Shown: in pieces, positions 8,406 through 57,941 of the stretch
Layout of the letters: every line of letters starts with the position of its first letter
Numbering within the stretch: position 1 is the first letter of the stretch
Assembly (NCBI GenBank): GCA_001910725.1
Contig: MJGA01000069.1
Location: 1-57,941 of the forward strand
DNA from: Phanerodontia chrysosporium
Lineage: Eukaryota > Basidiomycota > Agaricomycetes > Polyporales > Phanerochaetaceae
Reading direction: 5' to 3'
DNA: 57,941 bases
The notes under the pieces: generated by a model
The model's input: only the letters and a program-made list of their open reading frames with translations
The model's database searches: none
Told to the model about the DNA's origin: nothing
Program-made: the position numbers and the translations under genes

Positions 8406-8427
8406 CCATGCTAATAGTGTGGTGTCC

Positions 8428-25883: not shown

Positions 25884-27170
25884 TCAATCGGCAAACCCTG
25901 CAACCCCGGGAAATAGGACGCTGTACGCTGCACGCTTGGCCTTGGACAGGGCCATGCGCTCTTTATCACGTAGAAAGTTCCTCTTCTGGATGACCTCCCT
26001 GGTCTGGAAGTAGTCATGCACGACATTGACCGCGTTGATGAGGTCGATATAGTCCGCGGGCCGTGCGTCCGCTTGAAGGACGTGGGGGGTGTAGCGTATG
26101 ATAGTCTTTCCGTCACTAATGCGAGCGGGTTCTACGGAACACTTGTATGAGACGGGCTGCAGGGGGGTAATCTCCGTGTCGTGTTCGCTGGGTCGGAAGT
26201 GCTGCGGGGTGTCCCAGATGCCGGGGGGCAGACTGTCGTCCCATTGCTCGATGCAGGCTGGGGGCACGGCGGAAGGCTCAATCTGTGTCGGGGGCGTAAC
26301 GCAGGGTGCCGTCCAATGCGACATATGTGTCTCGGAGAGGGATTCTTCCAGCTTTCGCAGAGCCCTGAGGTCGCCCTGCGCACAGCTCCAGTGTCCGTAG
26401 TAGTTACGGGGCTCGACATGAGCCCATTTGTCGATGATATACTGCAGCGCTGCGTTCACGTCGTACTTGCCCCACTTCACGACGAAGTCCTCCCACGAGA
26501 TGACGTCGCGGTAAAGCCGTGCCGATAATGCCGCTGCCTGCTCAACCAGTGTAAGAGTGTAATACTCGAACGTAGTCAAGGTGAGGCTATGCGGGAACTG
26601 GAAGCTGGTCATGTAATTGCACATGAAATTGACAGAGTTGATCAGCCGCCACACGTTGAAATTTAGGCAATCCTCCTCATTTTGAACGAGTATAGGTCGG
26701 TACGAGATCTTTTCTGCCTCACAGATCACAGCGTAGGAGATGGCAAGCCGTCGAGATGTGTTTGCGCTCTTGCAGATGGCGTCAATATCGTCTTGACTAG
26801 GAAGAATCCATTCAGTCCTCGGATCGTTGTCGCGGTAGTTTGAATCCTGTTCACGAGCCTGTGCAGCCATGCGCATGCGGGCCATGTGTTCCTGACGAAG
26901 TGGAACCGACATCGGCGGTGCAAAGTCAGGAAGTGTCGGATGCCAGTGACGCTGGGTCTTGCAGCTTATAGCAAGTCGGCACAAGTTCCTTAGGACCTTG
27001 ATCTCGGAGGGAGTGAGCTTAACAACGTCCAGAAAATGCGGCTGCCCAAGTGCGAGGTAGAAGTTATAACAATGAAAGGAGATTCGAGCCTGGGTGGAGC
27101 AAGGCCACCTGCTGTCGAACTCTTCTCTGGACATCGGGAAATAGTTCATGGGCGCGAGTTCGGCGAACAT
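25884..27170 (-). CDS. Two-unit A-B repeat protein, family copy 1 (intact)
   Basis: A 428-aa uninterrupted single-exon frame and the reference member of a family I do not recognise. Order: A1, YFPMSREEFDSRWP (residues 9-22) continuing to LTPSEIKVLRNLCRLA (52-67); linker with QAREQDSNYRDNDPRTEW; B1, KISYRPILVQ...RLINSVNFMCNYMTS and LTTFEYYTLTLVEQAAAL (about 154-220); A2, ISWEDFVVKWGKYDVNAALQ (227-247); a Pro-rich connector; B2, PVSYKCSVEP, TIIRYTPHVL, DLINAVNVVHDYF, and FLRDKERMALSKAKRAA (about 345-415). The product should be soluble and largely helical; no signal peptide, TM segment, zinc site or transposase motif is visible. A TATA-like CTATATGA lies at 27270-27263 on this strand, about 95 nt upstream. 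The single-exon structure contrasts with intron-rich neighbours. Confidence 0.8.
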   Translation of the reverse strand: MFAELAPMNYFPMSREEFDSRWPCSTQARISFHCYNFYLALGQPHFLDVVKLTPSEIKVLRNLCRLAISCKTQRHWHPTLPDFAPPMSVPLRQEHMARMRMAAQAREQDSNYRDNDPRTEWILPSQDDIDAICKSANTSRRLAISYAVICEAEKISYRPILVQNEEDCLNFNVWRLINSVNFMCNYMTSFQFPHSLTLTTFEYYTLTLVEQAAALSARLYRDVISWEDFVVKWGKYDVNAALQYIIDKWAHVEPRNYYGHWSCAQGDLRALRKLEESLSETHMSHWTAPCVTPPTQIEPSAVPPACIEQWDDSLPPGIWDTPQHFRPSEHDTEITPLQPVSYKCSVEPARISDGKTIIRYTPHVLQADARPADYIDLINAVNVVHDYFQTREVIQKRNFLRDKERMALSKAKRAAYSVLFPGVAGFAD

Positions 27171-28108
27171 TGTTGCTGAATATGCGAGTTTCTCTCGGGG
27201 TAGTCTGGATGGAGGGCGACTAGTGAAGGTGAGCGTGTAGGACTGCGGTGAAGGTCAGAGCCTCATATAGTACAGAATCCCTCAAGATTCGTGGCTTGTA
27301 GTACAGGGCCACTAGACGGTTGGGCATGATGATGCTCTTTGTCTTGGCGAAGAATGCGCCGAGGGACTATGTGGCCTGCGTTGCGCCACGGCATATCTGT
27401 TGATGTGATCGCGCTCGACAATGCAACAAAAGCGCATTGACCTGCGGCTCTACCAATCGCGACGTCGACGTATCTGATGTAATGTTCATCAGTATACGTC
27501 GCAATAGGTGATCGATGTTCCATGGCCTCGTCCACTTGGTACTCGCTGGAGGGCCCGCCACCGCCGCACGGTCGTCGACTGAACGCCCAGGAACCATGAC
27601 CAAACTGATCCTGCAGAGCAACGAAAGGCTTCCTCTTTCCTGGGCTCTCCGTGATTATTCGTAGATGGACCACAACAACGTTTCACACTTTCGAAGACGC
27701 AAATACCTGAAAAGCCCACTGATTAACGTTTACAATCGTAGGATAGAAGTAGAAGGCAGACGCACCTTCATATCCAGGAAAGATGTTAAATCTTGCACAC
27801 GCTCGCACGTCCAGTCTCCGGAAATCCAGCAGCGATGCTTCTGACGCTGCGGCACTTGTATTATGGTACCAATACAAACCAACTAGAAAGGGGGGGGTAT
27901 GTAAATATGTGCGAGAACGAAGGGAGCGGCGAGTGGGTGTGTGGGTGTGTAGTGCAGGCGGTACGGGGTGTCGCGAAGGAGGCGGCGATAGCACAAAAGA
28001 GAACAGAGGACCAGAGCGGCGACGTGGAAACAGATGCAATAATAATGCAGGCGATGTGTTGTCCATAAAAACACTCTATCCTGGAACTTGGGGCATAGAC
28101 GAGCCTGG
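27171..28108. other. Intergenic region
   Basis: Contains the presumed promoter of family copy 1 (TATA-like at 27263-27270, minus strand) and a 136-codon minus-strand frame at 27263-27673 without motifs or splice continuity, which I do not call. The rest is the 3' flank of the kinase gene. Confidence 0.45.
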
Positions 28109-30817
28109 CTATGTGCGAAAAGCGAGGGCCTTTCTCACGTCTTCGCTTGCGTTCCGTGCCTTCTGTATGCTGGATCGTACACCAGCGTGCACGGTGGGTG
28201 CCGCGCTGGCCGTGCGCGTGGGCGCGCGCGAGCTGAGGGTACCCGCGCTCCTGCTGGTCGCAACTCCATGTCCGTTCACAGCCTGGGCAGCGTTGACGAC
28301 GGCGACGGCGCGCAGCGTATTGGCACCGCTCTTGCGCGTAGTCGCCGTGCGCGTGCGCGGTGGTGCCGAAGCCACTGGTGCATCACGTCCGGAGTGCTGT
28401 TGCAACGAACGCACAGGCGCAGACGCCGTCCGCGATATCCGGTCGCGGTCGATCTTCTTGAGGAACGGACTTGGCAGGTTCTCTTCGTCCGACATGTCGT
28501 ACTCTGGTGGGTCGCGTGTTGGCACGAAGCCAGCGAGAGGGGCACCGTCAGCCGCCGGGCGTGTCCGTGTCCGCACCCGCGCAGTGACAGTAGAAGAGGA
28601 TGAGCCTGTTGATGTTGCCGATGACGAGCTCGCGCGGGAGGACGACCGCGATGACGATGAAGGGATGACTGGCGCCGATGTTGACTCTACGATCGTAGGT
28701 CGTGAGCTGGAAGCGCGGATCGACGGTCTGCGAAGCCTGGTCGGTCGGACGGGGGGCTGGACGGCTTGCTTGGGTGTAGAGTCGACGTCTTCTTCCTCCT
28801 CTTCCTCCTCAGGCTCGCTCTCCTGCATCGGCGGACGCTTCTGTCCGCGAAGCGTCGCTGTGAGGCTCTGTGGCATGTGGGTGTCGGTTTCGTACCCCTC
28901 ACCCTCTGATTCGTCCGCATCGCTTTCGAAGTCGAAGATCTGCGCGAAGTTGAGCGAGACCTTCGGCGTCTCCATGAACAGCTTCGCGAACTCTGCGGGG
29001 CTCGGTGTCGCGAGCTGCTGCCCCGTTGAGGTGAGCACGACGCCTTTCATGGCGCTCGGTGGGCAGAAGTCCGCCGTGTTGGTGCGAATCGGCGTCTCGA
29101 AGACAGGGGGTTTGCTCTTGAGAGGCGTCTTTTGTGCATTCTCCTCATCCCAAAGTGGTTGGCGCATGAGGTTCTTGACATTCTCGAGTGGCGTCTTGCC
29201 CTCACGGCGGCTGGAGGCAAGCTCCTTCTCAGCCTGTTCACAGCGGCGTTCCATCTCGACGCGCATCGCCGCGATGCGGTCCTCCTCCTGTTGGAGCTCC
29301 GTTTCCCGCGTGCTGATCCATGCCATTCGTTCATCAACGGCACGCTGCATCGACTCTCGTGTGTCGCGCTCCCAGTCCGCCCACATCTTCGCGATGTCTT
29401 CTTCTCGTCGCCGAACGGCCTCCATGATCTCTTCCTCACGCCGAGCCATGCGCGCTGCAACTTCTGCTTCCTGCTTAAGGACCATGGCCCGTAGCTCCTC
29501 TTCACGCTTCAGCAAGGCCTCGCGGACTTTCGCCTGGTGCGTCTCTTCGGCAGTCGCCAGCAGCGCACGCAAGCCTGCGATCTCAGTGTCTTTCGCGGCG
29601 AGCAACGATGTCAGGCTGCTTTCCTTGTCAGCTAACGCTGCTTCCCGTGCGGCGACCTCTCGTTCGCGAGCGACGACAGTGGTCTTGTGCAGCTTCACCT
29701 GGTTAAGCCTGCAATCCAGTTAGCCTCAATATGACCGGTAGGGCTCCGCCACTTACATCTTCTGCGTCTCTGCAACTTTGAACGCGAGGTCCAGCCTCTC
29801 GTGTTGCAGGAGCTGTGCGGCACTAGGCCGCATAGCAGGGTTGAGATTCAGCATGGCTTTGATAACGCTCGAAAGCGCCGGACTGTAACCCTTGGGCAGA
29901 GGCGGGATACGGCCGTTGCGGATGAGTATGCTCAGCTCGGCGTGGGTTTTTGCCTCTGCGAACGGCGGCTTGAGCGCACAGAGCTCGAAGATGAGGCAGC
30001 CAAGCGACCAGATGTCGGACTTGGAGTCGTAAGCCTTCTCTTGCATGAGCTCCGGGGACATGTAATACGGCGTTCCAACATATGTCTGTGCGAAACTCGC
30101 CGTCGAGAGGGCTTTGGACAGACCAAAGTCACCGAGCTTGACGCAGTTGTTCTCATCCAGGAATACTGCGCATATGCGTCAGAAGCGGTATTTTACGCAT
30201 ATATGTAGGTAACATACCATTGTCAGGCTTCAGATCTCGATGCAAAATCTGTGGACGCTTCTCCCTCTCCTCGGAACTACCTCCTCCACTCAGACGTCCC
30301 TGCCCCTGGCCGCTCGGGTGGTGACAATAGTTCAAGGCGAGACATAACTGCATGAAGTAGTTCCAAATTGTGTCCTCCGGGATGGGACGTTGGTGTCGCT
30401 GTGCTTGCTTGATGATGCTGGAGAGGTCGCCGCCGCCGCAGTATTCCATGAGGATGTAGAGGATGCCAGCCTCGCGGTCGACATAGCGGTCGTGGTATCG
30501 GACAATGTTTTCATGATGCAAGTCTTTGAGGATGTTTCTGAGCAGCAAGAATAAGCTCTGGGTGCGTCCGACCACCGGCAGCGGACGTACACTTCGGCCA
30601 CAATTTGCTTCCTGTCCCGCTCAGACATGCGCTCAAAGTTCAACTCTTTCCTCGCAAATACCTACACATCCACACTTTTAAGAAACCAGGGAAAATTGTT
30701 GCAACTACGGAGGATGCTCACCACGCCGTCAGCCTTTCGCCTGACTTTGCGGATAATACCGAAGGAACCATTCCCGATGATGTCGAGGGGCTCATAAAGC
30801 GAGAGAGGGGAAGACAT
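28109..30817 (-). CDS. nimA: NIMA-family serine/threonine protein kinase
   Basis: Starts at ATG 30817: exon 1 encodes YEPLDIIGNGSFGIIRKVRR with the glycine loop (GxGxFG). Following exons give the kinase domain: ARKELNFERMSERDRKQIVAEV, NILKDLHHENIVRYHDRYVD, EYCGGGDLSSIIK, catalytic HRDLKPDN, KLGDFGLSKAL, and activation loop to GTPYYMSPELMQEKAYDSKSDIWSLGCL. A Gly/Ser/Arg insertion precedes HRDL (about 30235-30320). The last exon (from about 29715) has a long coiled coil (alternating Glu/Arg/Ala, about 29700-29180), then a disordered Ser/Arg/Pro-rich tail with an acidic run. NIMA kinases promote mitotic entry, and their coiled coils mediate oligomerisation. Kinase motifs are intact and introns are short. 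The order kinase, coiled coil, basic tail matches Aspergillus NimA. Confidence 0.9.
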
Positions 30818-31218
30818 GTCCGACACGGGTTATGTCAGGGGATGCCACAGTCGACCTTGCCTTCGTCGCCGCCGTGTTTGCAGTTGTCGCGGGGGCGGTA
30901 AGGGAGCACGCGGGCGTCGTCGTAGACGTTGAAGACGAACTTTGACGCTCAGTCCTCGCGTCTCCGAGACGTTGTCACGTGGGCGCGGCTGGCACGCCAC
31001 GAGGGACCTCGGGTTAGGGGCTAATCGTAGGCCCTCGCTTCCCTGGGACACGAGTCACTACGATTGTCAGAGAATCGGTGGCCACCTCGCAGCATGCAGC
31101 CGTAAGCTAGGACCTTGAAGCATGCGTCTGGCCCAAGCATCCTAGCCGAGTGGCGTAGGCGGTCCTTCAGTCGAATATAAGACGTGGCAAGTCACGCCAC
31201 CTTCACACCTTCAACGCT
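30818..31218. other. Divergent promoter region
   Basis: Shared upstream region of the kinase gene (minus) and family copy 2 (plus). A TATA box for copy 2 is at 31176-31180. No gene was seen. Confidence 0.5.
31176..31180 (+). promoter_or_regulatory. TATA box of family copy 2
   Basis: TATAA, in the context CGAATATAAGACG, lies 39 nt upstream of the ATG at 31219. It implies a very short leader. Confidence 0.5.
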
Positions 31219-31821
31219 ATGGGCGAGTACTGCCACGACGACTACACCTCGATACGTTGGTATGAGGCGAGATGGGGAAAGTACAAGCACAGTTTCGTCC
31301 GCAACGCCTTCCAAATGCTACGCCGCACTCTGCGCCGCCTCGACATAATCGACGATTCATTCGCCTTCAAGTGCACGCCTGGGGAATATCAAGTGTTGCG
31401 AAACCTAGAGATGAACTTTGCTCATCCAGCCTTTACGGCTGGACGCCGCAGACCCAACGTCATCCCGGATCGTCTCGCGTATCCCGCCGACCTCGACAAG
31501 TTCGAAGAGCGGTTCCTCATCACCAACGACGTGCGCCACGCAGCTCTTGAACAAGGGAAGGCCGTGCGGTACAGCAAGCTATTCCACACCCGCAATGCGT
31601 ATAGGATATGCTACACGGCCAGTCTGTCTCCGACAGATTGGCCTGCGGACGAACTCGACGCGATCAACGCGGTAATCCACTGTACCCGGACCAACGAGTT
31701 CGCTACACAGTATGGAGAACTCAGTGCGTTCGAGGCGGCAACGTTGGCACTTATCAAGTATGTGTTGGTTCAATGGTTGAGGAGGAAGCAACTTGGGCCC
31801 CAAGAACGTCGTCCAGCATAG
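31219..31821 (+). CDS. Single-unit A-B repeat protein, family copy 2 (intact)
   Basis: A 200-aa single-exon frame with one A and one B unit. A: YTSIRWYEARWGKYKHSFV (about residues 9-27) continuing to CTPGEYQVLRNLEM. B: AVRYSKLF, ELDAINAVIHCTRTNEF and LSAFEAATLALIKYVL (about 113-190). The motif order and spacing match half of family copy 1, and the C-terminus falls exactly after the FE-x2-TL helix. No TM segment or signal peptide. It is either an ancestral-type single-unit member or a half-length derivative. It sits between two minus-strand genes, and the frame is fully open with a proper TATA box, so expression is plausible. Confidence 0.72.
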   Translation: MGEYCHDDYTSIRWYEARWGKYKHSFVRNAFQMLRRTLRRLDIIDDSFAFKCTPGEYQVLRNLEMNFAHPAFTAGRRRPNVIPDRLAYPADLDKFEERFLITNDVRHAALEQGKAVRYSKLFHTRNAYRICYTASLSPTDWPADELDAINAVIHCTRTNEFATQYGELSAFEAATLALIKYVLVQWLRRKQLGPQERRPA

Positions 31822-32222
31822 TCTAGCCGGAGGGCGCCCCTGGTTCGACGACTACTTTACCACTTTGGCATCTCCATTGTATCCTTAGAAACCGTCTGTT
31901 ATACTGGTTCAATAGACCTTTTCGGGTCTCAAGTAGGTGAAGACTAGACGGTCCACGTTGCATAGATATCGGGGTCAACAGCAGAGTATGTGCATTGCAA
32001 GAGTATATGGAGCACAATAACCACAGCATGAGTTTCATGAAGGGTCGTAAGACATCACGAAGCGAAAGTACAACAAGATAATGTAGCGACCAACGAAGAT
32101 GCGAGCAAGAGTTCATGAATGGATACACACACGTAATGTAAGAATAAAAAGCGAATAAGTAGGGGAGCAAGATGCGGGTGCTTGATGGTAGTCCATCGCG
32201 GAGTGAGTCCCAAGAGAAATGC
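31822..32222. other. Convergent 3' intergenic region
   Basis: Between family copy 2 (plus) and the Cys-rich gene (minus). It is AT-richer than its flanks. No gene or element was seen. Confidence 0.5.
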
Positions 32223-35200
32223 CTAGCCGACCAGCTTGAACCGCACGATCGTCCGCAGGCCGGGGAAGTACTTGTGCGAGCGGTCCCAGAGAACCGAGAC
32301 GCGCAGCTCGCCCTGCATGCGCTTCGCAATGACGTCGAACACGAAGTTCTCCTGCCTCTCGTCGGCGGGGCCCGACTTGGCCACGCCTGCCGGCGCCGGC
32401 TTCGGGGCAACCGGCAGCGGCACGAGCAGCTCGTGCAAGCAGGTGTACTGCCCTACGATCGTGCCATCGGGCTGGATCTCGTAGCCGGCGAGGTCGAACG
32501 CGATGCCGAGCATGCGACCGATGTCCGCCTGGACCTCCTGGATGCGCGAGCCGACCTCGCCGCCGGCGGGGTCCGCGATGACGGAGAACTCGCCGTCAAA
32601 CGCGAAGAACGTGGGCTGTACGTCGTCGAGCGCAGCGGGGGCCGCAGCCGGGGCGAGCTGCTGCAGCTTGAAGCGCAGGTAGGCCGTCGTCGCCTGCTCA
32701 AAGCCGAGCAGCCGCGTGCGGAGGGCGTCGAGCATCGCAGGCAGCGTCTGGTACAGCGGGAAACGCACGGCGTCGTCGGGCACAATCTACGTACGCCCCA
32801 ATCAGCACAAAGTCGCGATAAAGCAAACCGGGATGCGATGCGTACCACACTGATCGCCGTCCGCACGCGTTTCCGCGCATCCACGCTCGCCACGGTCGTG
32901 CCCTTGAACGTGAGCCGGAGTTTCTTGAACGCGACACGGTCCTTGCGGCGCTCGAGGCGCCCGAGCAGCTCCGCGTCCTCGCCATCCTCGTCCGACGCGA
33001 GACCGACCTCGCCGTAGCGCCGCTTGCGGCTCTGGCGGCGCGTGCGCGTGCGACAGTCCTCGCAAAGCTTCCAGCGGTAGCGGTCCTCGGGCGGGAGGAG
33101 CGCCTTGCACGTGCGGATCGCGCACGGGCGCGCGCCGTCAGTGGCCGCGGTTGTCGCGCTGTCGTGCACGAAGACGCGGTGCTGTCGCTCGCGCGACTGC
33201 TGCCGGAAGCGCAGCCGGCAGGTGTGACACATCTTCCACTTCGACCAGGGCACGAGCAGATTGTGACACTTGCTCCGTACACATACAAAGCCCTTGGGTC
33301 CTGGTAGGCACGACCCCTGCGGTCTAGCGTCTCGTCCACGACTGGTTTCGCCGGGCTTCGCTTCTGAGTCTGAGTCGTCCGACGACTCGAGAGGTGTCAA
33401 CTCAGATAGGTCGCTGTCCCACAAGTTCTCGTCAGGGCACTCTTTACGAGTGTAGCGCGGCGCATGGGAAGCTGTAGGAGACGGTGAAGAGGAAGACGAT
33501 GCGACAGGTAACTTTGGAGATGACGACGATGACGATGGTGAAGGAAGGCAAGACTTCTGGCTAATCGTTGCCGATGTGACATGCGGGGATGACGGGCTCG
33601 AAGGAGTTTGTATCGGGGCATCTGGAGACCCTTGACGCGACGAAGGCGGCGGGGTCGGTAATGAAGATCTTCCCGAGTCTTTCAGGCGATGAACCTTGCC
33701 CTCTCCTTTGCCCATGGCAGGCAAAATTGAGGGCTCACTCACCCGGCGATGTCTATCTCCTGCAATCTCACTCATGCCCTGCACTAGTGAGACGTTGGGG
33801 TCAGACTGGCGCCTGCCAGTGCCCTGGGTATCAACGGCGGGATTCCACGTAAGGGGCTCGGAGGGCGAGAGCGTTTTGGGCTCTTTACTTCTCAAGCAGT
33901 CGGCACAGAAGATCCATGGATGGCTGGGTTCAAGTGTAGCAGTGCAACCGCGGCGCCGGCATGGCCGCATCATGGTGGTAATGGACGGAGAGATGGCTGC
34001 CATTTGTGGATTTCCGGCTTTACCAGAGGTTACAGGAGATAGGTCAGGTTTCGCCACGTTATTCAGGGATATTCTGGACGGGAGGCGGAGTGTCAGCCGT
34101 GAACGACCATGACGAGGCTCCGGTGAGAGATCTGGAGCAGCGGGAGAGTCGGCGTTAGAGGATGTAGAGACCAAGGCTGGTGAGGAATTAGCAGAGTGAT
34201 TCTGGAGCGGTCGGGTGGTCAACGGCAACGAAAGAGGTTCGGGTTTCGCTCTGTTTTTCACATATCGTCGTAGAGAAAGCGGGATTTCTTCCGGCGAAGA
34301 TGGTGTGGGCGTGGAGAATGAGGGTCCGCTGCAAGTTGATGAGACGTCATCCTGTGATATCAAGGGCGAGGGTGGAACGATGTATTGTCCTCTATCGTTG
34401 AAATGCGGCGTCTTGCTGAGTGTCTCTATCGCCTGCTCCGTCTGTTCCCAGCGCAGGAGTAGAGCCGATAAGAAGCTGCGCGCGACAGGTGGAGGAGGCG
34501 TGATACCCGATGACGGCTTCAGCTCCTCCGCAATGTACATCTTTGCCGTCGCTTTACGCTTCAGCGGTCTAGCGAAGGAATACTGATCAGGCTCCCCAGC
34601 TAAGGCCTGCAATTTCGTGCTGGTCTGAGCTTCCGTCCGGTGTGTCGTGATCTCCACAGGCGACTTCTTGTTGTCGGACGTCGCTTTCTGCAGCTTTGGC
34701 AGCCGGATCCTCAAAGGCTGGTCGGTCTGACCAGTCTTAGGCGCAGCAGGAGCTTGCACCTCGAGGAGGCGGGTATTTGGCTGACCATCTTGATGGCTGA
34801 CGGCGTGCGGTCGGCTAGAAGGGGTACGGGCGGGTTGGTTTGGTTTCGAAGCGGGCAGACGTGCTGAAGACTTCACCGAGCCGGACATGGCGTTCGCAGA
34901 CAGCATCTTGGCCTCACAAATGGTGCATATGATGAACTGGACAGGGCGCACGATGGGTGGGAGGACGACGGCTCTGGCGCAGATAGCGCATGTCGGTTTC
35001 TGAACTCTATTAGTGCGTCAAGTGAAACGACTTTCAAGTTTGAGAACGCACCATCACACCATTCGTACGTCCGTTTAGCATCTGCTTCAACTTCTCGCGC
35101 TCCGCCTGGCTACGTCTCTTCTGCTCGCAAACGACGCAGAGTCCAGACGACTGCGTCGGTTCGACCGTCCATTCGCATCCCGGCGTGGGGCAGGTAGGTT

Positions 35201-38081: not shown

Positions 38082-39416
38082 ATGTCCGTCGATGCACATG
38101 AGCTCGAGCCCATGAGATACACCCCTATGTCCTTGGATGAGTTTGCGAGAAGATGGCCCTTCATCCCCACACTTCGCTTCCTCAATCTTCGAATCATCTT
38201 CCATCGCCACAATCTTCTCGAAGAGCTCGGGGAGAAGCATTGCCTTGGAGTTGTCAGCCTCACACCCTCAGAGAAAAAAGCCATTCAGATCTTGTGCGAT
38301 TTTGCCACGGAAGTCTAGATTTCGGGGGCAAGCTTCCAGAGCCGTCGACTTATTCTCCCGGACTCGTCGCAGTGGCCGACTTCGAATTTAAACCCATTTC
38401 GCAAGTGGCACCACGAGCATATGCAAAAGGGGGAGAAAGCTCGTGAACAGGACCCCAGCTATCGCGACGATGACCCCAGGGCCGAATGGGAACTTCCCAC
38501 CAGCGAGCAAGTCGAAGCGATCCACAACAGTCAGAACAAGCCCCTGCGAGTTGCCATCGACTACGACGTACACTGCGACGGACCCAAGATGTGGTACAAG
38601 CCTAAACTCATCTACGACGGAGCAGAGCATCAAAACAAGTGGGAGCGAATCAACTCGGTCAACTTCATGTGCGCCTACTTGACCAGCTTCGCGTTTCACG
38701 GAAGCTCGACACTGCGGCGATTCGAATACCACACCCTCCGTCTGCTCGAGCACGCGGCGGCCTTGTCCGCCAGGCTCAACTTGGACGACATATCATGGAA
38801 CGAGTTCGTTGAGAAATGGGGCAACTACGACGTTCAAGCAGCGCTGCAGCGCATCTTTGACGAATGGGTCGACAATATCCATAACCATTCCTACGATGGT
38901 TGGGATCGTAACTCGCAAGACATCGCCCCTCTGGAGAAACTCCGAGCATACCTGGCCGGGTCACCGGCTGCGTGCGGATGGAGGTCGCCTGGCATCATGC
39001 CTCCGACTCTGCTTGCGCCCGCAGGTGTACCCAATAGCTGCGTCGAGCAGTGGGGTTGTGTCCAGGCAGACAAGCGGAGGCCGCACTTCCTGCCCAGCGA
39101 GAAGAAGTCATATGCTTGGACAATTCCTTTGCGACCTGTCACGTACGGGTGCTGCGCCATACCGCCCGACGACTCGTTGAGCGGCGAGAAAACAACCATA
39201 CGTTACATACCATACGTATGTTCGGCTCATGCACAGCCTTCAGAGTATGTCGAAGCGCTCAATGCGGTTATTGTCGTGTACGACTACTTCCGGACCCAGG
39301 AGGTCGTTCGCAGAAGGGGTTTCCTGGCCATGGGAGAGCGTGTTGCCTTGGCCCGCGCCAAGCGTGCAGTGTTCCGTGTTTCCTTCCCTGATATGGCCGA
39401 ATTTGATGCTGAATGA
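38082..39416 (+). pseudogene. Two-unit A-B repeat protein, family copy 3, one in-frame stop
   Basis: Residues 1-78 give A1 (YTPMSLDEFARRWPF...LTPSEKKAIQILCDFATEV), then TAG at 38316-38318. The same frame continues without further stops to TGA at 39414-39416: linker KAREQDPSYRDDDPRAEWELP, B1 WERINSVNFMCAYLTS and LRRFEYHTLRLLEHAAAL, A2 ISWNEFVEKWGNYDVQAALQ, B2 PVTYGCCAIP, TTIRYIPYV, ALNAVIVVYDYF and ERVALARAKRA. About 444 codons in total. No donor/acceptor pair of reasonable size removes the stop. It is either a recent nonsense pseudogene, a gene restarting at ATG 38421, or a stop that is read through (no CUA readthrough context follows). Confidence 0.75.
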
Positions 39417-40735: not shown

Positions 40736-41825
40736 ATGGTCGTCCTCGGCTCGAACGGCCTCGCCGCCTACGCGACCCGGAACCCACGCTACGTCGCCCT
40801 CCTCGCAGTCTTTCTCCTCTCCAGCACGCTCCTTCTCATTCCGTGGCACGATGCGGCGCCCCTGTCGATCAGCGGCTACCTGCCCAGCAAGTTCCGCGGC
40901 TCGATGTCGCTCGAGGAGTTCGTCAGGCAGGAGGAGTTACGCTACGCGGACGTGCTCGCGGAGCGGCAGACCATGATCAAGCACTACGGGCCGAACCCCA
41001 ACGATGTTGATTCGTGCGTTACCGTCTCTGCTGCACGCTCACAGACGCTCACTTTGCAGGCAGGTTCCCGCCGGGCGACATATTCTACACCCTGTGGGAC
41101 TTTTTCATCCCTGCCTTCAATTGCCCGCACCGCGTCGATCGCCTCGGTGCACTTGGTGACGGCGGCAAATGGGTGTGTGGCATCGACGCCATTGCCCAGC
41201 AGCGGCACCCCTGCGTCGTGTACAGCTTCGGTGTGAACCGCGACAGCTCGTACGAGGCTGCGCTCCTGCAGCGCGCGCCGCACTGCGAGGTCTGGGGCTT
41301 CGACTTTAGCGTGACGATGTTCGGGCCCGAGGTGCACGGCAACCCCGTGCTCGCGCAGAAGACCCACTTCTTCCCCTACAAGCTCGGAGCGCACGATAAC
41401 CCCCACCTCTCTCCGCCGAGTACACGATTCAGGGCCTCATGCACAAGAATGGCCACGACTTCATCGATATCCTCAAGGTGGACGTCGAAGGCTCCGAGTT
41501 CGAGGCGCTAGAGGCGTTCCTCAAGCCCTTCATTGGGCCCAACGCGCCGCCACTCCCCATCGGGCAGCTCGAGATCGAGATACACGCGTGGGGCGACCTT
41601 GGCAGCTTCCAGTTCTTCTACAGCTGGTGGTCGCTCATGGAACGTGCGGGTCTGCGGCCCTTCTGGACAGAGCCAAACATTGTGCATGTGAGCCATCTGC
41701 AGGCGAGGCCCGATGTAGTTGAGGTGAGTCCTACGTTGTCTCAGATGACAATCGCTGACATCGTCCTGCAGTACTCGCTGCTCAACGTCCGCGGGCAGCA
41801 TGCCCTTATAACATCCGACTGGTAG
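40736..41825 (+). CDS. FkbM-like methyltransferase, membrane-anchored, frameshifted
   Basis: ATG at 40736. The N-terminus carries a single hydrophobic anchor (YVALLAVFLLSSTLLLIPW, residues about 21-39), giving a type II membrane or Golgi-type topology. Intron 1 begins GTGCGT (about 41013) and joins to FPPGDIFYTLWDFFIPAFNCPHRVDRLG, then GDGGKWVCG (an SAM-binding-like Gly-rich strand), CVVYSFGVN and HCEVWGFDFS. The block HDFIDILKVDVEGSEFEALE (about 41451-41510) is the FkbM-type signature. Between HDNPHLS and EYTIQGLM (about 41397-41425) the frame must change by one base next to a run of five C. A last 48-nt intron (41724-41771) is in frame and the stop is at 41823. It is either a frameshifted gene or a sequencing error in the C-run. 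Confidence 0.72.
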
Positions 41826-42000
41826 TCTTCACTGCGCCAGGTGCGCTTACATCGGCTTGGGACATTCGTTATGGGGCTCTACGAGTGTAAAATTTGGGTA
41901 ATAATGAAGTACAATACGATCGCGTTCAATGTTCGACATCGCGACTTTGATCCGTAGAAGCTAAAGACGGTAACATAAATAGGAACCCCATCCCCTGCCC

Positions 42001-42789
42001 TTACACGACCACTGCAAACGGATTCCTTCGCTCCTCTGCAACAGCCTTCCGTTTCCCCGCCCTCCGATTCCCAGTCCCCACCAGCGTCCCGCGCGGTGCC
42101 CCGGCGGCCCACTTCAACATCGCTTTTGTGTGCGACAGCCACACGACGTCCCGGCGGACGAGCTCCACTGTACGAGACTCGAACTCGCTCAGCCCACCGT
42201 GGGTATAAGCGAACGCGTCCGTATGAACGTAATCACAGAATGCATTCGCCATGTCCACGTCGTCCCATGGCTCCCCTGCACGATCTTCCAGGACGACCTG
42301 GCCCCAGTACGTCACCGCCGGCCTTCCGTCCTGGTCTTTGTGCCAGTTCTTGTGGTACCGCAGCGTCTGCTCCTGGCGTGCGCCGTCCGTCGTCGTACAG
42401 AACTCCCAGTGTTCCGCCACTTCGGGCGTGGAGCTGCGGTGTCCGGGCCGGCTGTCGACGTACGGCCTGCGGCGACCCTGCGACACCCAGTATGGCCGTG
42501 GGTTCGCGAGGCACATCTCGAGGATGTCGAGCACGCGCAGCTCGTCGTCCGTGAGTCGCAGATGCTTGTGCAGGAAGGCGTGGTCGAAGTGCACTTGCTC
42601 GCGCAGATGGCCGATCACGGACGCCATGTGGCGTGCGTCGTATGGACCCCACCGTGCCTCGTACGTGTCTAGCGGGAGCGGAACGTAGTCGATCTCGCGA
42701 GGAGGCTCGTAAGACGAGCTGGAAGCGAAGGAGGTAATGGAGTCTGTGGCTGCCCCAGCGCTTGCACCGGTACTCGCGGGGGCGGGCAT
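42001..42789 (-). CDS. Single-unit A-B repeat protein, family copy 4 (intact)
   Basis: A 262-aa single-exon frame. A Ser/Ala-rich leader (about 30 residues) precedes A: YVPLPLDTYEARWGPYDARHM (about 36-56) through LTDDELRVLDILEMCLANP. The middle has SQGRRRPYVDSRPG, matching the TAGRRRPNVIPDR of copy 2. B: AVTYWGQVVL, DVDMANAFCDYVHTDAF and LSEFESRTVELVRRDVVWL (about 165-230). The C-terminus is basic (NRRAGKRKAVAEERR), which could be a nuclear-localisation signal. One A-B unit only, like copy 2, with which it shares the linker; the two short members form a subfamily. No TM segment. Fully open frame. Confidence 0.72.
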   Translation of the reverse strand: MPAPASTGASAGAATDSITSFASSSSYEPPREIDYVPLPLDTYEARWGPYDARHMASVIGHLREQVHFDHAFLHKHLRLTDDELRVLDILEMCLANPRPYWVSQGRRRPYVDSRPGHRSSTPEVAEHWEFCTTTDGARQEQTLRYHKNWHKDQDGRPAVTYWGQVVLEDRAGEPWDDVDMANAFCDYVHTDAFAYTHGGLSEFESRTVELVRRDVVWLSHTKAMLKWAAGAPRGTLVGTGNRRAGKRKAVAEERRNPFAVVV

Positions 42790-43272: not shown

Positions 43273-44454
43273 CTACAGATCATCAAAGCAGCCAGTCGAA
43301 GCCAAGAGCCAACGCTTAAGTCGATACAACGCGATACGCTCATACTTGAGGAGGAAGCCCCGCGCACGGATCACATCGCTTCTGCGGAAGTAGTCGTACG
43401 CGATGTTCACTGCGTTCAGCCGGTCGATGTAGTTCGCGGGTCGCGTGTTGTTTGAGAATAGGTGAGGCTCGTAGTAGATGGAGCGTTGCCCGCTTGCCAC
43501 GCCAGCGTATACCAGACGTGTCAGGCGGTACACGATCGGATTCACTGGGTCGGCGCCGAGCTCGCCACGAGGCGTGCTGTCCGGTGGGCCTTCCCATTCC
43601 TCGGGCCAGCCGCGCGGGAGAGCCCGTCTGTAGTACTGGCTGGAAGTAGGGGGCTTCCTAAGGCGGAGAGGCTTTCGTTTGATTGCACACGAAGTAGGGT
43701 TGCACACGTATGTCTTGAGCTTCCTGAGGGCGTCGGTTTGCTTATCCACCTTGCTGGCATCTGAGGTATCCTGGAGGCTGGCATACTGTTTCCATATTCC
43801 ATCGACCAGCATCACTGCCATGCGTACATCGCATGCACCCCACTTGGCGACAAAGTCGCGCTCTGACATAGCGTCTCAAGTGAACTGCGCGGAGATGGCC
43901 GCTGCACAACGCAAGAGCGTGAGCGTGGACAAGTCGGACGATCGGAGGTGACCGCACAGAGACGCAGCGCTGGTGAGATAGTCGCAGAGGAAGTTGACAG
44001 AGTTGATGCGCTGCCACGGGTTCTGGTCCTCGGTACCATTCTCGATGACTGTTGGTCGGTACCGCACGCCTTCATCGTCGCAGATAATGTCGTAGACGAC
44101 AGGTCGCCGCGCGGCGTTGTCTGCTGTAAGGACGGCTTGTGCCTGTGTTGGCGTCAGAGGCATCCAGGTTATGCTGGGGTCCTTTGGCAATCTGCGACGC
44201 TGAAGGGATGCTGGCTGAGTGTGATCCTGTGTTTGGGGGTATTGTCCGTTGCATAGGGCCTCAAGGGTCTGTTTCTCGGTGGGAGAGAGAACGATGACGT
44301 CCAGGAATAACTCTTGGTCTAGCTCACTGAGGACGTTCGTGACGTAAAACTCGAGGTCGTATTCGCCCCATTTCAGCGCAAGATTCTCCCTCGTGAGAGT
44401 CGCATATTTCGCGACCTCGTCTAGCAAGTGTTGGTTAGTTTCTGTAGAATCCAT
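43273..44454 (-). pseudogene. Two-unit A-B repeat protein, family copy 5, one in-frame stop
   Basis: Starts at ATG 44454. A1: YATLTRENLALKWGEYDLEFY and LSPTEKQTLEALCN. The linker is followed by B1: GVRYRPTVIENGTEDQNPW, QRINSVNFLCDYLTS and STLTLLRCAAAISAQFT. TGA (43878-43876) then interrupts exactly between B1 and A2. The same frame resumes with AMSERDFVAKWGACDVRMAVM (A2) and continues to B2: IYYEPHLFSNN, DRLNAVNIAYDYF and ERIALYRLKRWLL, ending at 43273. Total about 393 codons. It is more diverged from copy 1 than copy 3 is. ATAAAG at about 44511-44516 (minus strand) serves as a TATA-like box. Either a nonsense pseudogene or two half-length products separated at the unit border. Confidence 0.75.
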
Positions 44455-45875: not shown

Positions 45876-46142
45876 ATGTCGTCAAAACTCCCCTCCGTTC
45901 TCGCTGCCACTGATGAGGAGATCCAGCTCCTCCTTGCGGCCCAGTGCCACATCGGCACCAAGAACTGCGACAAGCAGATGGAGCCGTACGTCTGGAAGAG
46001 GAGGTCTGACGGTACGTCCTCGCGCATGCATCCCGCCACACTGTGCAGAGCCAGACGAGCCGTTGCGCGTCCGTAGGCATCCACATCATCAACATTGGCA
46101 AGACCTGGGAGAAGCTCGTTTTCGCTGCTCGCATCATTGCTG

Positions 46143-46173
<31 letters not shown>

Positions 46174-48882: not shown

Positions 48883-49430
48883 AGCGAGAGCTCGTACTCA
48901 GACCCGTGCTGTCGGTAGAAACAAAATTGAACGTTGGACACTTGCAGACGCGACGCGGGTGTGAACGTGAGTGACGAATCATGAGAGCGACAGCCTGTCG
49001 GATGTACTGTATGGTTAGAGTGGATTAGATAGACATGGAACCATCATAGGTTGATTACGACAACATATAGATTTGTGGTCGCGAATATCGAAGTATGTCA
49101 AAACCCCGGGTATACGTACTGTAGAGTGCTAAGCTAACACGATGGTTTTCCTACATACTATCGGTGCTTCAACAACGTCTACTACAAAAAACCTTACCTC
49201 GTAAATCAAGTGTTAAATGCGTGCACTTACATCGGCTGTTTACACCTAGAGGCACGTGCTGGGTTACGTAACACCACGCGTCTGCCAAATATGGCAGGTC
49301 TTAATTACACGCGCGTCGCCGCGTCAGGTTTTGTTCGTCGACGTCGATCGTATTCCCTTCATCGTCTTCCACGGCGTCCGCGAGGCCACATTCTCTTCTT
49401 AAAAGCCCAGTTTTACGTTTTACGGAGATA
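48883..49430. other. Intergenic region
   Basis: 3' flank of the deaminase gene and 5' flank of RAD7. AT-rich; no gene or element seen. Confidence 0.5.
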
Positions 49431-51522: not shown

Positions 51523-52515
51523 CCCTCATTTGTTTGGATATTTCGGTCTAGATACCCTGCGTGTACGTTTATATGTCGTTCTATGTATGCTTATCTCTTT
51601 TAGGTCTGGCTTCGTGAGCGGGTATATGGACGTCTTCGGCTCGTCTCTGCTAGTCTCATACTCAGTCTGAGAAAGACCCTAAAAAATTCACTCGGGAAGG
51701 GTAACGTAGAGCGAGAGCAGCGTATTAGTTGATTTTCACACCTCTTGATGCCTCAGCCGATACAACCCCTTGGCAGGAGACGGCTTACAGCAGCTTAGGA
51801 TCAAAGGACGTTTCCAAGACCCGCAGCAGGTACGGAAACTGATCAAGAATCTCCGGGAACTTCCACGCTAATCATAGACCATCACAGAGATGCCTTAACC
51901 GCCTTTCCGTCTGGTTTAGACGCACTCAAGGCTGCTCAAGTACCGCGCTCGACAATATTGCTCTTCCCTTGCTTCGGGTGCTTCATGAGGGATGGAACGC
52001 TTGGTAGCTCGTCAGTTGACGTTCACGTGTATTCCACGTCCTTACTGAAAGCTTGGTCTTCAGTTCATCACTGAACTCCTGTATACCGGCGTTCGCTGGG
52101 ATCGCGCAGGTACTCAGCCTCTCCACAGGGCGGGAGGTATGCTGCATGAGTTTGTTCGCGGCATTCTAGGCGTGCATCGCGCAGTCTGGGCATTTTGTCC
52201 GTCCGTCCGCTTACTGTGCTGCAGCTGATCTAGTATCTGATCGATGTAACACTCCCGGACGGCTGCGCTAACGACCCCGGCCCAGCAAGTGACCTCATAC
52301 AAACCATTCCATCCATCGTCGCTTGGACATGTGTCTTCCGTTAGAACTACACGACTCTTCATCGCCCGACCGCGGCTCGGTCCCTGACAAGGGTCCTGGC
52401 GCTATGCGCGACGATACTCTGAGGTTGGTTTCAATTCACTGTGCTCTCTATATAAGATGCTGATTCGCAGTTCTAACAGACAGTGCTCTAGTTCTCTCTC
52501 TCTTCATCCACCAAG
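51523..52515. other. Intergenic region
   Basis: RAD7 3' flank and the promoter of the lectin-like gene, with TATATAA at 52449-52455. No gene was seen. Confidence 0.5.
52449..52455 (+). promoter_or_regulatory. TATA box of the lectin-like gene
   Basis: TATATAA in the context CTCTATATAAGATG lies 67 nt upstream of the ATG at 52516. Confidence 0.6.
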
Positions 52516-55500
52516 ATGTGCTCTTCAGTCCTCGGCAACGTCATCTGCGCTGTTCCCAACCGCCCAGGGTTCGATGTCTACTGCATTGATCCCAGGCGAC
52601 GGACTCGACGCCTAACATTGTCGTCTTCGGGAAAGCCGCCAGCTCGAACAACATCGAGGACAAGCTCACCTTCCGTGCGGACTACGGGTTCCGCGACTCC
52701 AAGATCGCCGTAACCAGGGTGAGCGCACGGATATCGATTGAACGAAAAGCCGCTAACAAAAGACCTAGCGTGAGTTTGGGAATGGTAGCCAGCAAGCGTC
52801 CATCTACTATCAAGGGTACAATGGGAATCTGCTCGAATACAGGATTACGCGGGCCGGTGTCAGAGCGTTGCTCAACGTTGACAACGTCCCCGCGAACACG
52901 ACTCGCCTTCCGACTGCACCGGCCATGGGATGCTCTCTCGCAGCTACCATGACTGGTGCAGACGGGCAGACCGTGGTGCTCTTCTACCAGACAGAGGATA
53001 ATGTCAGTATCCTTTATGTTGTGATACACCATCCATCGCTCATGGCAGACGGTTTTCCAGAAAATATGTGCGACCCACCGATTCTTGTCGGCAAGAGGCG
53101 CTGTGCACTGATGTTCTCCAAACTTTACTAGACTACGTGTGGCAGCGGGCGTTCGGGACGTGGAGTCTCCCCATACTCGTCACAAACGAGGCGACCACGG
53201 GACCATCGACCCTTTCTGCCTTCTCCTGGACAGGTCAGTACCCACTTTGCCTGATTATTGCACCGTAATTTATACGCCTGCGCCTGGTACTTCTTTCTCT
53301 AGAGTCTGACCCGAACGCCCGGACCGTCATAGACTGCGTCTGCATCGCCTTCAATACTTCCCCCGGTCAGGTAACCGTATACATGCGCCGCGAGTTGCGC
53401 CGCCCCTCCGCAGCAGGCGCGCTTCCCTCCTCTCTTCGCCCGAACTTCGAGCCTGTCGTCAACTACTTCGGCCCTACCACGCGCGGGCCGCTCTCCGCGG
53501 TATATGCCACTGCCGAAGATTGCTCGCCGCTCGTAGGGCAGTATCAAATCTATACGCAATTGCTGGAGGACCCGTCCAGAATCTGGGCTGGGACAGTGTT
53601 GCCCGGGAACAACGCTGGTGGCGCGCTGTTCCAGAAATATAAGGTTGTGGTGGCCGATACGCCGCGGCTTAGGATCCCGGCTCGTGGAAGTACGTCGGCT
53701 GTTCTGTCCGCTGCTCTCCGCTGGTCATGCTAAGATTTTGTTAAGCTTCCATCTCGACCGTATACGACCCGCCTAAAGAGGGCGACAAGACATACACTGG
53801 ACGTATGTAACGCTTATATCTGATGTCTGATGACTTCTAACAACGTGTCTAGGTATGACAGTCGTATACACTAGTTCAGAGGGTCTCATTGCCTATCACG
53901 AAATGGACGTGGTGCAGCCGATCCCGCCTCATCCGTAAGATTCTGTTGTCTGTAGAACTTTTGTACAATATGGTATGAACGAAATGCTTCATTAGCATTG
54001 AACCTCCATACGTGCCAGTCACACCTCCGGTCCCTACGCTTCCCTCACCCCCCATTCCTCCGATACCAGGCTTCCGGTTGATGGCGTCTGTGAGTGTGTC
54101 TTATCTGAACGCATGTACCATGACTAGCGGAATCTCATCCACCTTTGTCAGATATCATAGTTAACGTCTCAGTAACGGTATCTCTCAGTATGAATGAAGG
54201 TATGACATTGACTCTACTCCCCAAATCTGCTCAGCTACGTATGTGTTCTGTCACGCAGATTTTTCCGTGTCGGTCGCCACCAACGTCGAGGTCTCGAATG
54301 GCTTCTCTCATTTGTGGCTCGTCGAGGCCAAAACTAGTGACAGCGATAGCCACGACATATCCTCGGTAGCATACACGTTACGAAACATCGCTACCGGTGC
54401 AAAGCTCCAAGTCGGCAATGGTAAATGTTGTATACCAGTCTCCGTAAGTCAACTACTGATCATGCGCTGTTATCACGCATTTTAGGTCAGAGAACGGAAG
54501 GTGGGGAAGAGGATAATGGCCAGGAATGGGCGCTTACACGAGACACGAGTGGTGAGATGCTGTTCAGGTGAGTGCACGCTGCGAAGACGAATTGTTGGGT
54601 TCGGTTTTGACGAGCTTTGCCCATTCTAGTATCCAAAGCAAGGCTAAGCAGAGTGAGTATTCGCTTGACCATCGTGTCTTCCTTCTGTCGTACTCAACGA
54701 GCACCCTGTCGAATCCTAACCCAAGCCTTCGTCGAGGAAATGTGTGTTTCAAAGTTATAATCAATGAGATGAAGTCCACGCTGACGGCTTTGAGTAGCTT
54801 GAGCGACGCAGGCCAGAACACCCGTTCAGCCGGCGGCAAGCTTCCCAGCCGCCCAAGCACCGGCTCTCAGTGGAAATTCCAGCAGGTCAGTGTCTCACCT
54901 GATCAGATACAGCGCGCGGTAGATGCCATCCCGCACGTTTCGACGGGCTGGGCGCGCAACAGGAGCCACCGGGTGGACAAACAGTGCGTCATCTCTTGTT
55001 GTATTCTGGGCAAGCCGTTGACTCTGAGAGCGCGTGCAGTTATATCGTCATCCAGCCTGCGCAGTGGGAGGCGATATGGAAGACGTCCGGCTTGGGAAAC
55101 TATCACTGGACGGAGGAGCTATTTGACTGTGACGACTTTGCTGTCGGTTCGTTCTTCCTTCGTGTCATTTACTTACGACGTTCTAATGGCCTCGCTACGT
55201 ATGCAGTGTTAAAAGGAAGAGTTGCAGAGTGGGGCTATAGCAATATCAGAACACAGGTACGCGAGATTAATATGTCTGCACCATTCACTCTGAACCCACA
55301 CGACTGACGTTCGTCTACAGAAAGTGGGAATCCTCTGCGGGTTGATCTGTGCACGTGCACGCAACGGCGGGTGGGACACTGCTTCAATTTCAGCCTGGCG
55401 TCGAACCTGAAGACGGTGACCTTCTTCGAGTATGTTTATTGGTTGCACAGCTCCAGGAGGTTACTGATGGAAATCTCTTGATAGGCCTCAGAGGGGCACG

Positions 55501-55618
55501 TTTGAGGCGGTACGTTATTTGGACCTGCCAACGTTTGTTCCTTTTTCGTTCACTTATCTCGGGATGATACGTACAGGAACTGATCAAGAAGTACGAGCCC
55601 ACGTTTGGGTTCTGGTGA
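52516..55618 (+). CDS. Lectin-like protein with agglutinin C-terminal domain, probably broken
   Basis: A gene with about 15 small exons. N-terminal half: repeated beta-propeller-like strands of the fucose-lectin type (ASIYYQGYNGNLLEYRI, GQTVVLFYQTEDN, YVWQRAFGTWSLPIL, MTVVYTSSEGLIAYHEM). A Pro-rich linker (PPYVPVTPPVPTLPSPPIPP, about 54004-54063) follows, then a ricin-B-like stretch (VAYTLRNIATGAKLQVGNG and QEWALTRDTSGEM, about 54370-54565). Last comes a domain resembling the calcium-dependent cysteine-protease domain of Marasmius agglutinin (YHWTEELFDCDDFA at about 55096-55137, KGRVAEWGY, GHCFNFSL, VTFFEPQRG). The His of GHCFNF (55377-55379) would be the catalytic one; I could not place the Cys. 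A frame conflict lies between 55321 and 55375, and another near 52590, so the gene may be inactive. Such chimerolectins act in defence against predators. Confidence 0.6.
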
Positions 55619-55838
55619 ACGAACGGCTAGATGGACAACTGTGACGAGCGTGGCGCGAGAACGCTCCAGAGACGCCTATTTTACCTTTTCCTGTGTACAT
55701 CGCAATTTGCTACTCTTCGTGTTGGTGAGACGTCATGCAGTTCTGATTCAGTGCCTCTCAAAATCGCTTGTCCACAGGCAAAATAAATCTTTATGGATTC
55801 GTAATCTGTTACGCAAGTTCTGGTACCGGCAGAAAGCT

Positions 55839-57144
55839 TCATTCTACGAACTCGGCTCTGTCAGGAAAGAGGGCATGGTAGGCCGCATGCTTCGCCCGCA
55901 ACAGGGTGGAACGCTCTCCGTTGCGCAGGAAGCCCCTCTTGTCGACGACCTCCCTCAGCCGGAAGAAGTCGTACACGACATTCACTGCGTTGATCAGGTC
56001 GTTGTACTCCTCGGGCTGCGCGTCCGCCCTATGTTCGCGCGGGGTGTAGAGGATGGTCGTGGTCCTGCCGCAAGAGTTCACCGGTGCAATGCAGCACCCG
56101 TACGACACGGGAAGCAGGGGCGTCGCCTCCGTGCAGCCCGTGGGGAGCGTCGTACAGCGAAAGTGCCGTGGCCCTTGCGCGTTCGGCGGTATGCAGCCCC
56201 ATTCCTCAACGCGGGAGCGGCCTCGGAGGAAGCACATTTCCGTCTGAGGCGGGAACGTTAAGGGGGGTGTTGCCATTGGCGGTTCGCTCCCGAGGTATAG
56301 CCTCGAAGTCCTTTCAGATAGTCGACGCTGCGAGGGCCGGGGCTCCAGTGTGTGTAGCGGTGCCCAAGACTGTCCGCCGCCCATTCGTCGCAGATGAGCT
56401 GCAGCGCCGCGCCGACGTCGTATGTGCCCCACTTCGCGATGAACTCGTCCCGCAGGATGATGTCTGCACTGTGTCGCGCCGACAGCGCCGCCATCAGCTC
56501 GAGGAGCGCTATGGTGCTGTACTCGAACGGCCGCAGCCCGTGGCTCCCCCAGAACGCGCCGCTTGTCAAGTAGGCGCACATGAAGTTGACGGAGTTGATT
56601 GAATGCCACCTGTTCCGCCGCAGGTATTCTGGCCCATCCCGGATAACTGTCGGGCGGAACGAAATACTGTCTCCCTCGGTATGTACCGTGTAGTCGATGC
56701 AAGCCGATGAGGTGCATCTTGACTCTTGCAGATAGCCTCGACCTGCTCTCTCGTAGGAGGGACCCAGGTCGTTCTGGGATCGTTGTAACGAGGACTTGGA
56801 CCCTGTTTACGGGCCTTGTCGTCTATTGCCATGTGGTCTTCGTGCTTATGGCGAAGCCGGTTTCCCTTAGGTGGGTTGGGCATTGGAGCACGAGGTAACG
56901 CTTCTCGAACACGCGACACGTTCATCTACCGTGGTAAAGCGGCACAGGTTCTCCATTACCTCTCTTTCGGCCGAAGTGATCGTGAGGGTGTCCAGAAAAG
57001 TGTGGTTTTCTGAGCTCGCATAAAAGCTGTTGGAGGTGGAAGGAAACTTGCTGACGGAGTGAAGAAAGGCCACCTGCTCTCGAACACTTCCCGGGGCATC
57101 GGGATGTAATTCACGGGCGTAATTGCAGCTGCAGCGCGAGACAT
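55839..57144 (-). pseudogene. Two-unit A-B repeat protein, family copy 6, multiply frameshifted
   Basis: All family blocks are present in order but in different frames. Start ATG 57144: NYIPMPREVFESRWPFF (A1), then a shift near 57070 to SENHTFLDTLTITSAEREVM. Another shift leads to the linker PRYNDPRTTWVPPTREQVEAI (about 56810-56730), a further one to SINSVNFMCAYLTS, LRPFEYSTIALLELMAAL (B1) and ILRDEFIAKWGTYDVGAALQ (A2). A last shift near 56270 precedes B2: PVSYGCCIAP, TTTILYTPRE, DLINAVNVVYDFF and ERSTLLRAKHA, ending at 55839. At least three frameshifts. The residues between breaks remain close to copies 1 and 3, so inactivation looks fairly recent. Confidence 0.8.
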
Positions 57145-57838
57145 ATGTTCCGGACGTTTGAGACTTGCTTTAGCAGATGGGGAAGCAGGATGCAACTTGG
57201 AGGCGAGGGTCTAAAACTACGTTTTCGCTTCATACGTCTCAGGCTTTAAGCCACTTCGGAACCTCATGGCTTACAGTGGCCATCGGCACTTTGGTGAGCC
57301 TAATGTTCTTTGTCGCCACATACATAGAGAAAGAGAATCAAACCCTGATGTGGCCTGCATGGCGCCAGGTGGGCCTGAGTCGGACAAAGCGTCGGAGAGC
57401 TTCGTGTTTGGGCCAGCCGCAACGAGGACTACATGCACCTCAGGTGGCCCTGCGGCACCCACCAAACACCCGCAGCCTGCAAATGACGTATAATGCATTG
57501 TCCGCTACATGGATCCATACTTTGTTTACCGGTTCAAGCTTGCGAATTTGTGATGTTGTGGGAACTCTACGCGAAGCGTGAGTGGCATTCTTCCCAAAGG
57601 CACAAAGTCAAGAATTAACGTGGCCACATCAGATGCGCGCCACACAGAGTTTCATGACAATTTGTCCCCATGGAAAGCCTCCGCGCGGACCACAATGAAG
57701 GGCAGAAATCGCAGGGCAGAGAGGTGTGGCTCGGGGACAAATGCGGCCTCGTCTGGGAGGATATAACCGGCCCTTCCGACTCCGAGGCCTGCCAGTAACA
57801 TACACCTGAGCATCTACCCATCCAACAAGCAAGCAGCC
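57145..57838. other. Divergent intergenic region
   Basis: Lies between family copy 6 (minus) and a probable gene start at the right edge. TATAA for the latter is at 57762-57766. No other gene was seen. Confidence 0.5.
57762..57766 (+). promoter_or_regulatory. TATA box near right edge
   Basis: TATAA in the context GGAGGATATAACC lies 77 nt upstream of the ATG at 57839, followed by a leader ending CAAGCAAGCAGCC before the ATG. Confidence 0.55.
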
Positions 57839-57941
57839 ATGCCAGCGCGCAACGCCGTACGCAAGACGCGCCGAAGCCAGTCCCGGCCCCGTACTCGAAG
57901 CCTATGGCACCTTCACCGACGCCGAGCTCAAGCAGAAATGG
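57839..57941 (+). CDS. 5' end of a possible seventh A-B family copy (partial)
   Basis: The ATG at 57839 follows a TATA box at the usual distance. In the ATG frame the product is Arg-rich and unremarkable. In the next frame the last 54 nt read PVLEAYGTFTDAELKQKW, which resembles the A block (compare TLTRENLALKWG of copy 5 and YTSIRWYEARWG of copy 2). This suggests another family copy whose frame is shifted or whose first intron is short. The window ends before this can be settled. Confidence 0.35.
   Translation, partial: MPARNAVRKTRRSQSRPRTRSLWHLHRRRAQAEM

Follow-up and report, generated by a model that had tools for sequence, protein, structure and literature searches.

The described systems closest to the locus reported here include two sets of fungal genes. 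The het genes of filamentous fungi have alleles that differ in function between nuclei of one species and carry a HET or NACHT-type domain, while drivers of the wtf type have multiple membrane segments. According to the excerpted text of PMC9562144, the wtf meiotic drivers of fission yeasts comprise 16 intact genes and 9 pseudogenes in the reference isolate of S. pombe, and candidate homologs are reported by the authors only in some fission yeasts; the excerpt of PMC8229728 describes models of heterokaryon incompatibility as currently derived from ascomycetes. The present locus lies on contig C112 of a 39.0-Mb, 145-contig assembly of Phanerodontia chrysosporium, analyzed over 57,941 nucleotides (the window), and holds six related copies of one gene (A to F) and the start of a seventh (G). 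By description, it can be likened to wtf as a multi-copy fungal family that mixes intact genes and pseudogenes (PMC9562144, in excerpt). However, copies A, B and D have no membrane segments, the copies sit at a single locus, and there is no sign of rapid allelic change. The likeness to the het genes is that alleles differ between nuclei of one species, but the copies have neither a HET or NACHT domain nor an excess of allelic divergence. The DUF6535 gene that adjoins copy A (window 23,027–25,294) belongs to a family likewise of unknown function, sits at the same locus and has a similar allelic dN/dS (0.27). Its sequence is different, however, and it is matched at E 5e-48, whereas the copies match no Pfam model. 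We consider, with a probability of about 0.6, that the copies form a locally confined birth-and-death family whose soluble intracellular products probably have a binding role and whose genes spread by local DNA duplication.

The copies were placed by stop-to-stop frames within the window. Copy A (25,884–27,170, minus strand) is a two-module gene of 428 amino acids that runs from ATG to stop as a single open exon, with module 1 at about 26,523–27,146 and module 2 at about 25,887–26,516, both matched by a mixed-module profile. Copies B (31,219–31,821, plus strand) and D (42,001–42,789, minus strand) are open and have a single module each, in 200 and 262 amino acids, respectively, D ending in a basic C-terminal tail. 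Copies C (38,082–39,416, plus strand), E (43,273–44,454, minus strand) and F (55,839–57,144, minus strand) have two modules, C and E being disabled and F broken in frame. Only the first 100 or so bases of copy G (57,839–57,941, plus strand) are present before the contig end cuts it off: the last letters of the window, ...YGTFTDAELKQKW, belong to it, and its continuation is found at C73:69,203–69,973 and also on C62. By eye, the ATG and the module of G are in different frames, and the copy probably holds one module. A preliminary description of this DNA had listed these seven copies, the last with a "perhaps"; six of them have open or nearly open frames where it placed them, and the seventh is real. 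It had also called the copies mostly single-exon, and indeed A, B and D can be read without any intron, but several of the others are broken (C by a TAG, E by a TGA, F by frameshifts).

The same description undercounted the locus, as two more copies lie just past the end of the window. When a profile of eight modules was run over six-frame fragments of C112 and of the first 100 kb of C73, it recovered A to F and added G, H and I on C73. Copy H (C73:71,136–71,906, minus strand; allele at C62:1,702–2,467) begins this extension, followed by copy I (C73:72,071–73,081, plus strand; allele at C62:2,622–3,619), for which the match is weak (E 1.7e-6). Copy J, with a single module, lies about 355 kb further along, at C62:358,317–358,880, and scores 49 bits (E 5e-15 in a two-locus test) with a module profile that had not been trained on it. 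All members found apart from J fit inside about 36 kb of one chromosome. Within this stretch they are dispersed on both strands and not in tandem, as previously described, among unrelated genes that include a kinase, a Methyltransf_22 gene, 40S ribosomal protein SA (RPSA), glucosamine-6-phosphate isomerase and an LRR protein. The Methyltransf_22 gene, beside D (window 41,096–41,678), has a 68%-identical relative at C73:82,924–83,546, about 31 kb further along the locus, and is thus a second duplicated gene type in the region.

The relationship between these contigs is best seen from C73. Its positions 15,060–69,431 are collinear with window 11,994–57,941; most blocks are 96–98% identical, and the region around E is 94% identical. 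C73 is also the only other contig of the genome on which the RPSA gene of the window occurs. (A third genomic match, on C80, is a different and better-scoring Ribosomal_S2 gene, probably the mitochondrial one.) From this collinearity and the distribution of RPSA, C73 is best read as the other allele of the window and not as an extra duplication. The end of the window matches C73:69,431 and base 202 of C62 matches C73:69,633; C62 therefore starts where the window stops on the C73 map and continues the haplotype of the window. At the other end, no collinear sequence was found between the haplotypes (window 1–11,994 versus C73:1–15,060), the window having a Helicase_C ORF (4,578–5,663) and C73 a gag-like ORF and DUF6589. 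From about position 4,624 of C62 and 74,170 of C73, the haplotypes are identical over the last 496 bp compared, after 3% divergence, possibly because heterozygosity stops there or because the assembly is collapsed.

The repeat unit of the family is a module of about 180 amino acids, present once in B, D, H, I and J and twice in A, C, E and F. That the copies form one family, as had been claimed, is borne out by similarity above chance. Scored against 200 shuffles per pair, the first modules of A and E (A1–E1) reach a z of 36.5, A2–C2 74, B–D 23, E1–E2 8.6 and E1–D 7.0. Many other pairs are noise by the same measure (for example, A1–A2 at 1.5 and C2–D at −0.1), so that family membership depends on chains of similarity. 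A profile trained on only the single-module copies B, D, H, I and J matches both halves of E (i-E 1.6e-5 and 5.2e-12), A2 (6.3e-11) and C2 (8.4e-9), with a weak match to part of F module 2 (0.0045); the top hit among 1,177 decoy ORFs is at E 0.27. A1 has no match to this profile (E 1.1) and is linked to the family solely via E1. In a maximum-likelihood tree of 11 modules, A1 groups with E1 (98/97), A2, C2, E2 and F2 form another clade (98/98), and B and D group together (96/96). The positions of H and J, both on long branches, are uncertain. Since modules 1 and 2 fall into separate supported clades, the doubling is older than the spread of the doubled copies. The copies are thus homologous, and the two-module form is the product of an internal duplication. 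Of the sequence blocks that were originally taken to be shared by the copies, INSVNF...YLTS is a motif of module 1 and NAVN...DYF of module 2 of the two-module copies; in B and D, only a Y-x2-R-W-G form is present, together with less strict variants of the second motif.

A genome-wide copy count, as suggested in the preliminary description, was made by six-frame searches of the 39-Mb assembly with seven members as queries (A, B, D, E module 2, H, I and J). Convincing matches were found only on C112, C73 and C62, and the single-protein searches with these seven members gave no further convincing copy elsewhere in the assembly. Because such searches may miss distant copies (A1 and I were themselves missed by some queries), the copy count is a lower bound. 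Three matches were left out of it: C102:1,631,110 (E 0.37) and C73:215,248 (E 0.056), both at noise level with the module profiles, and the ambiguous C135:819,272, where H as query gave E 0.013 and the singles profile 10.4 bits, but A2 nothing. As far as single-protein searches reach, the family is confined to one locus.

How did the copies spread? Among the explanations offered earlier, a duplication-prone locus fits best, with all members found but J inside one short stretch. Retrocopying, which had also been offered, is not supported: the copies are at one locus, no poly-A stands out (the longest A run within 400 bp downstream of eight copies is 3–6, compared to 2–7 in 60 random pieces), and no similarity is shared in the 1-kb flanks of eight copies, upstream against upstream or downstream against downstream, the sole match being the overlapping upstream region common to H and I. 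Confinement to one locus on both strands, with neither flank homology nor poly-A, makes retrocopying less likely and favors local duplication of DNA, accompanied by rearrangement, as the probable route. It is also conceivable that the copies are remnants of mobile elements or an integrated virus, the module deriving from an element with repeated insertions into a single region, as dispersed copies on two strands, read without introns and several of them broken, might suggest. The region does take transposons, as shown by an insertion near A in the other haplotype. However, confinement to one locus and the lack of common 1-kb flanks or poly-A are not what such an origin predicts; neither a transposase domain nor a viral one is encoded by the copies, viral contigs yielded no relative of A or D, a fold search gave no BFVD match at E ≤ 0.001, and the amino-acid sequence is constrained. 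We consider this origin very unlikely and already disfavor it. The insertion itself is a 6.5-kb piece found only on C73 (C73:27,873–34,381, at window 24,713–24,718, about 3 kb from copy A) and contains a Plavaka transposase (PF18759) that is split between two or more frames; the piece lies inside the DUF6535 ORF, so that this gene is interrupted on C73. A second extra piece, of 1.6 kb (C73:34,976–36,603), lies between the 3' end of the DUF6535 ORF and copy A (window 25,291–25,307).

What might these proteins do? That the copies belong to no Pfam family, as first suspected, holds even at E ≤ 10 in Pfam-A, both for all 7 proteins and for all 9 modules searched, among which no HET, NACHT, transposase or viral domain was seen. 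In NCBIfam, only one of nine members gives any match, at E 1.7. PDB sequences yielded nothing at E ≤ 10 with the A2 profile and only weak matches with single queries (best E 0.041 for A, to mL42, and 0.81 for D), and a fold search, with query models that were middling at best, gave nothing at E ≤ 0.001 in PDB or BFVD. Structure prediction of copy A, proposed in the preliminary description, was carried out and gave a useless model (35.8). The best model obtained, that of D, is middling (mean pLDDT 58.7, pTM 0.53), its better parts being helices around 40–100 and 175–220, with a hairpin at 142–166 at lower confidence; from this model, the module is predicted to consist of N-terminal helices, a beta hairpin and C-terminal helices. 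A, B and D have no membrane segments (highest 19-residue Kyte-Doolittle means of 0.79, 1.26 and 0.55, respectively) and, by eye, no signal peptide. Over nine aligned modules, the invariant residues are limited to one W, one L and one Y, and there is no conserved catalytic-looking set of residues, which would argue for a binding rather than an enzymatic role. From these features, we tentatively propose soluble intracellular binding proteins, presumably partly redundant. As to a more specific role, our guess, and a doubtful one, is that the proteins are dispensable adaptors or binding proteins, able to replace one another well enough for copies to be lost, D being kept by both haplotypes.

The two haplotypes differ in which copies are open. 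D is open in both, its alleles 97% identical with no allelic indel between them. A and B are open in the window, while their C73 alleles have two 1-bp frameshifts in G runs (A, C73:37,239–38,523) and one 1-bp frameshift (B, C73:42,562–43,157). C has a TAG at 38,316 where the allele has TGG, and the C73 allele lacks 92 bp after window position 38,505. E has a TGA at 43,878, between its modules, where the allele has TGG, and the C73 allele has two frameshifts and two stops. F has five frameshifts on the window side and three on C73. H and I are open on C73; on C62, H has four frameshifts despite 99% amino-acid identity, more like assembly error than decay, and I has two, near both ends of the compared stretch.

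It might be argued that this is an ordinary family in full use, every copy being intact in nature and nearly all frameshifts being assembly errors. Besides the case of H, indel density climbs at the contig ends: the ratio of indels to substitutions is 0.03–0.10 in eight 5-kb bins up to 52 kb, then 0.14 and 0.18 (0.05 to 0.39 in 1-kb bins beyond 52 kb), and stays high over the first 4.4 kb of C62, with 27 indels (24 of 1 bp) versus 96 substitutions. Single-base indels between the haplotypes are dense all around the C112/C62 junction (window 52,000–57,941, C62:202–4,639), suggesting a poor contig-end consensus. Assembly errors probably account for some of the one-base frameshifts near contig ends and may account for some of those on the window side of F. 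F is nevertheless probably broken in both haplotypes, given the three frameshifts on C73, where its allele is in the middle of the contig. Because of this rise toward the contig ends, we rely on the nonsense substitutions in C and E (TGG to TAG and TGG to TGA) and the 92-bp deletion in the allele of C, none of which is a homopolymer slip, and on the two stops in the C73 allele of E, and we take the 1-bp shifts of A, B, H and I as only possible lesions. Both C and E carry disabling lesions in each haplotype, and these lesions differ between the two.

Indel counts bear on the same question. The copies have 14 frame-shifting allelic indels in 6,395 bp, compared to 2 in 8,952 bp of eight neighbor ORFs on the same contigs (Fisher p 4e-4); these ORFs were trimmed after a first look, and untrimmed they have 4 in 11,123 bp (p 7e-4). 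The remaining sequence has 45 in 18,800 bp, not different from the copies (p 0.88), which in this respect resemble non-coding and not coding DNA. However, F alone, near the contig end, accounts for 8 of the 14, and without it the p value is 0.03 against the trimmed ORFs and 0.08 against the untrimmed ones, so that the latter count weakens the excess. On balance, a family with every copy intact appears unlikely.

If copies are being lost, were they maintained before? Between alleles, the pooled pN/pS of A to F is 0.35 (77 nonsynonymous and 71 synonymous changes; binomial p 5e-10), with F contributing only 300 codons; A, B and D together give 0.30, and C, E and F give 0.38. Seven neighbor ORFs range from 0.05 to 0.45 (Methyltransf_22 0.05, RPSA and the LRR gene 0.11 each, two others 0.23 and 0.27, and two without a Pfam match 0.40 and 0.45), so the copies are not set apart by pN/pS, which would also suit a family with every copy in use. 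A value of 0.38 in copies that are now broken does not fit old pseudogenes. As constraint on the amino-acid sequence is still visible between the haplotypes, the losses look recent: the copies would have been constrained for much of the separation of the haplotypes, C and E having been lost late, by different events, presumably after a recent relaxation of constraint.

The same data bear on whether this could be a recognition, incompatibility or drive locus, with specificity or killer and suppressor genes that are lost and gained differently in each nucleus of a dikaryon; a fast-evolving recognition family had been among the original suggestions. Confinement to one locus, the absence of library matches, the different null alleles in the two haplotypes and the parallel mixture of intact genes and pseudogenes among wtf drivers (PMC9562144, in excerpt) would all suit such a role. 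However, allelic substitutions in the two haplotypes are not raised in the copies, at 26.9 per kb compared to 30.4 in the rest of the locus and 19.0 in neighbor ORFs, and amino-acid change is constrained, so that fast evolution is without direct support. Moreover, the copies lack a HET, a NACHT or any other Pfam domain, membrane segments are absent from A, B and D, and the matches to STE3 and to homeodomains fall on contigs other than those of the locus. This role is therefore improbable, and we give still less credence to its most far-reaching form, in which the array would be a locus, not described before, for conflict or allorecognition within a species of dikaryotic mushroom, with a new protein fold and differing sets of live and dead genes in each nucleus.

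For a locally confined birth-and-death family, the history would have been as follows. A single-module gene may have duplicated internally to give the two-module form, and both forms would have spread among housekeeping genes by local duplication and rearrangement at the DNA level. The copies would then have diverged deeply and would now be undergoing loss one by one, differently in the two nuclear haplotypes. At present, this is a well-documented orphan family and not a new mechanism, with D, A, H and J as defined targets for structural and knock-out work. If the reading is true, it adds a protein module that is absent from the family libraries searched here and that has a clear history from one module to two, along with a locus at which one can follow how gene copies are gained and lost between the two nuclei of a single fungus.
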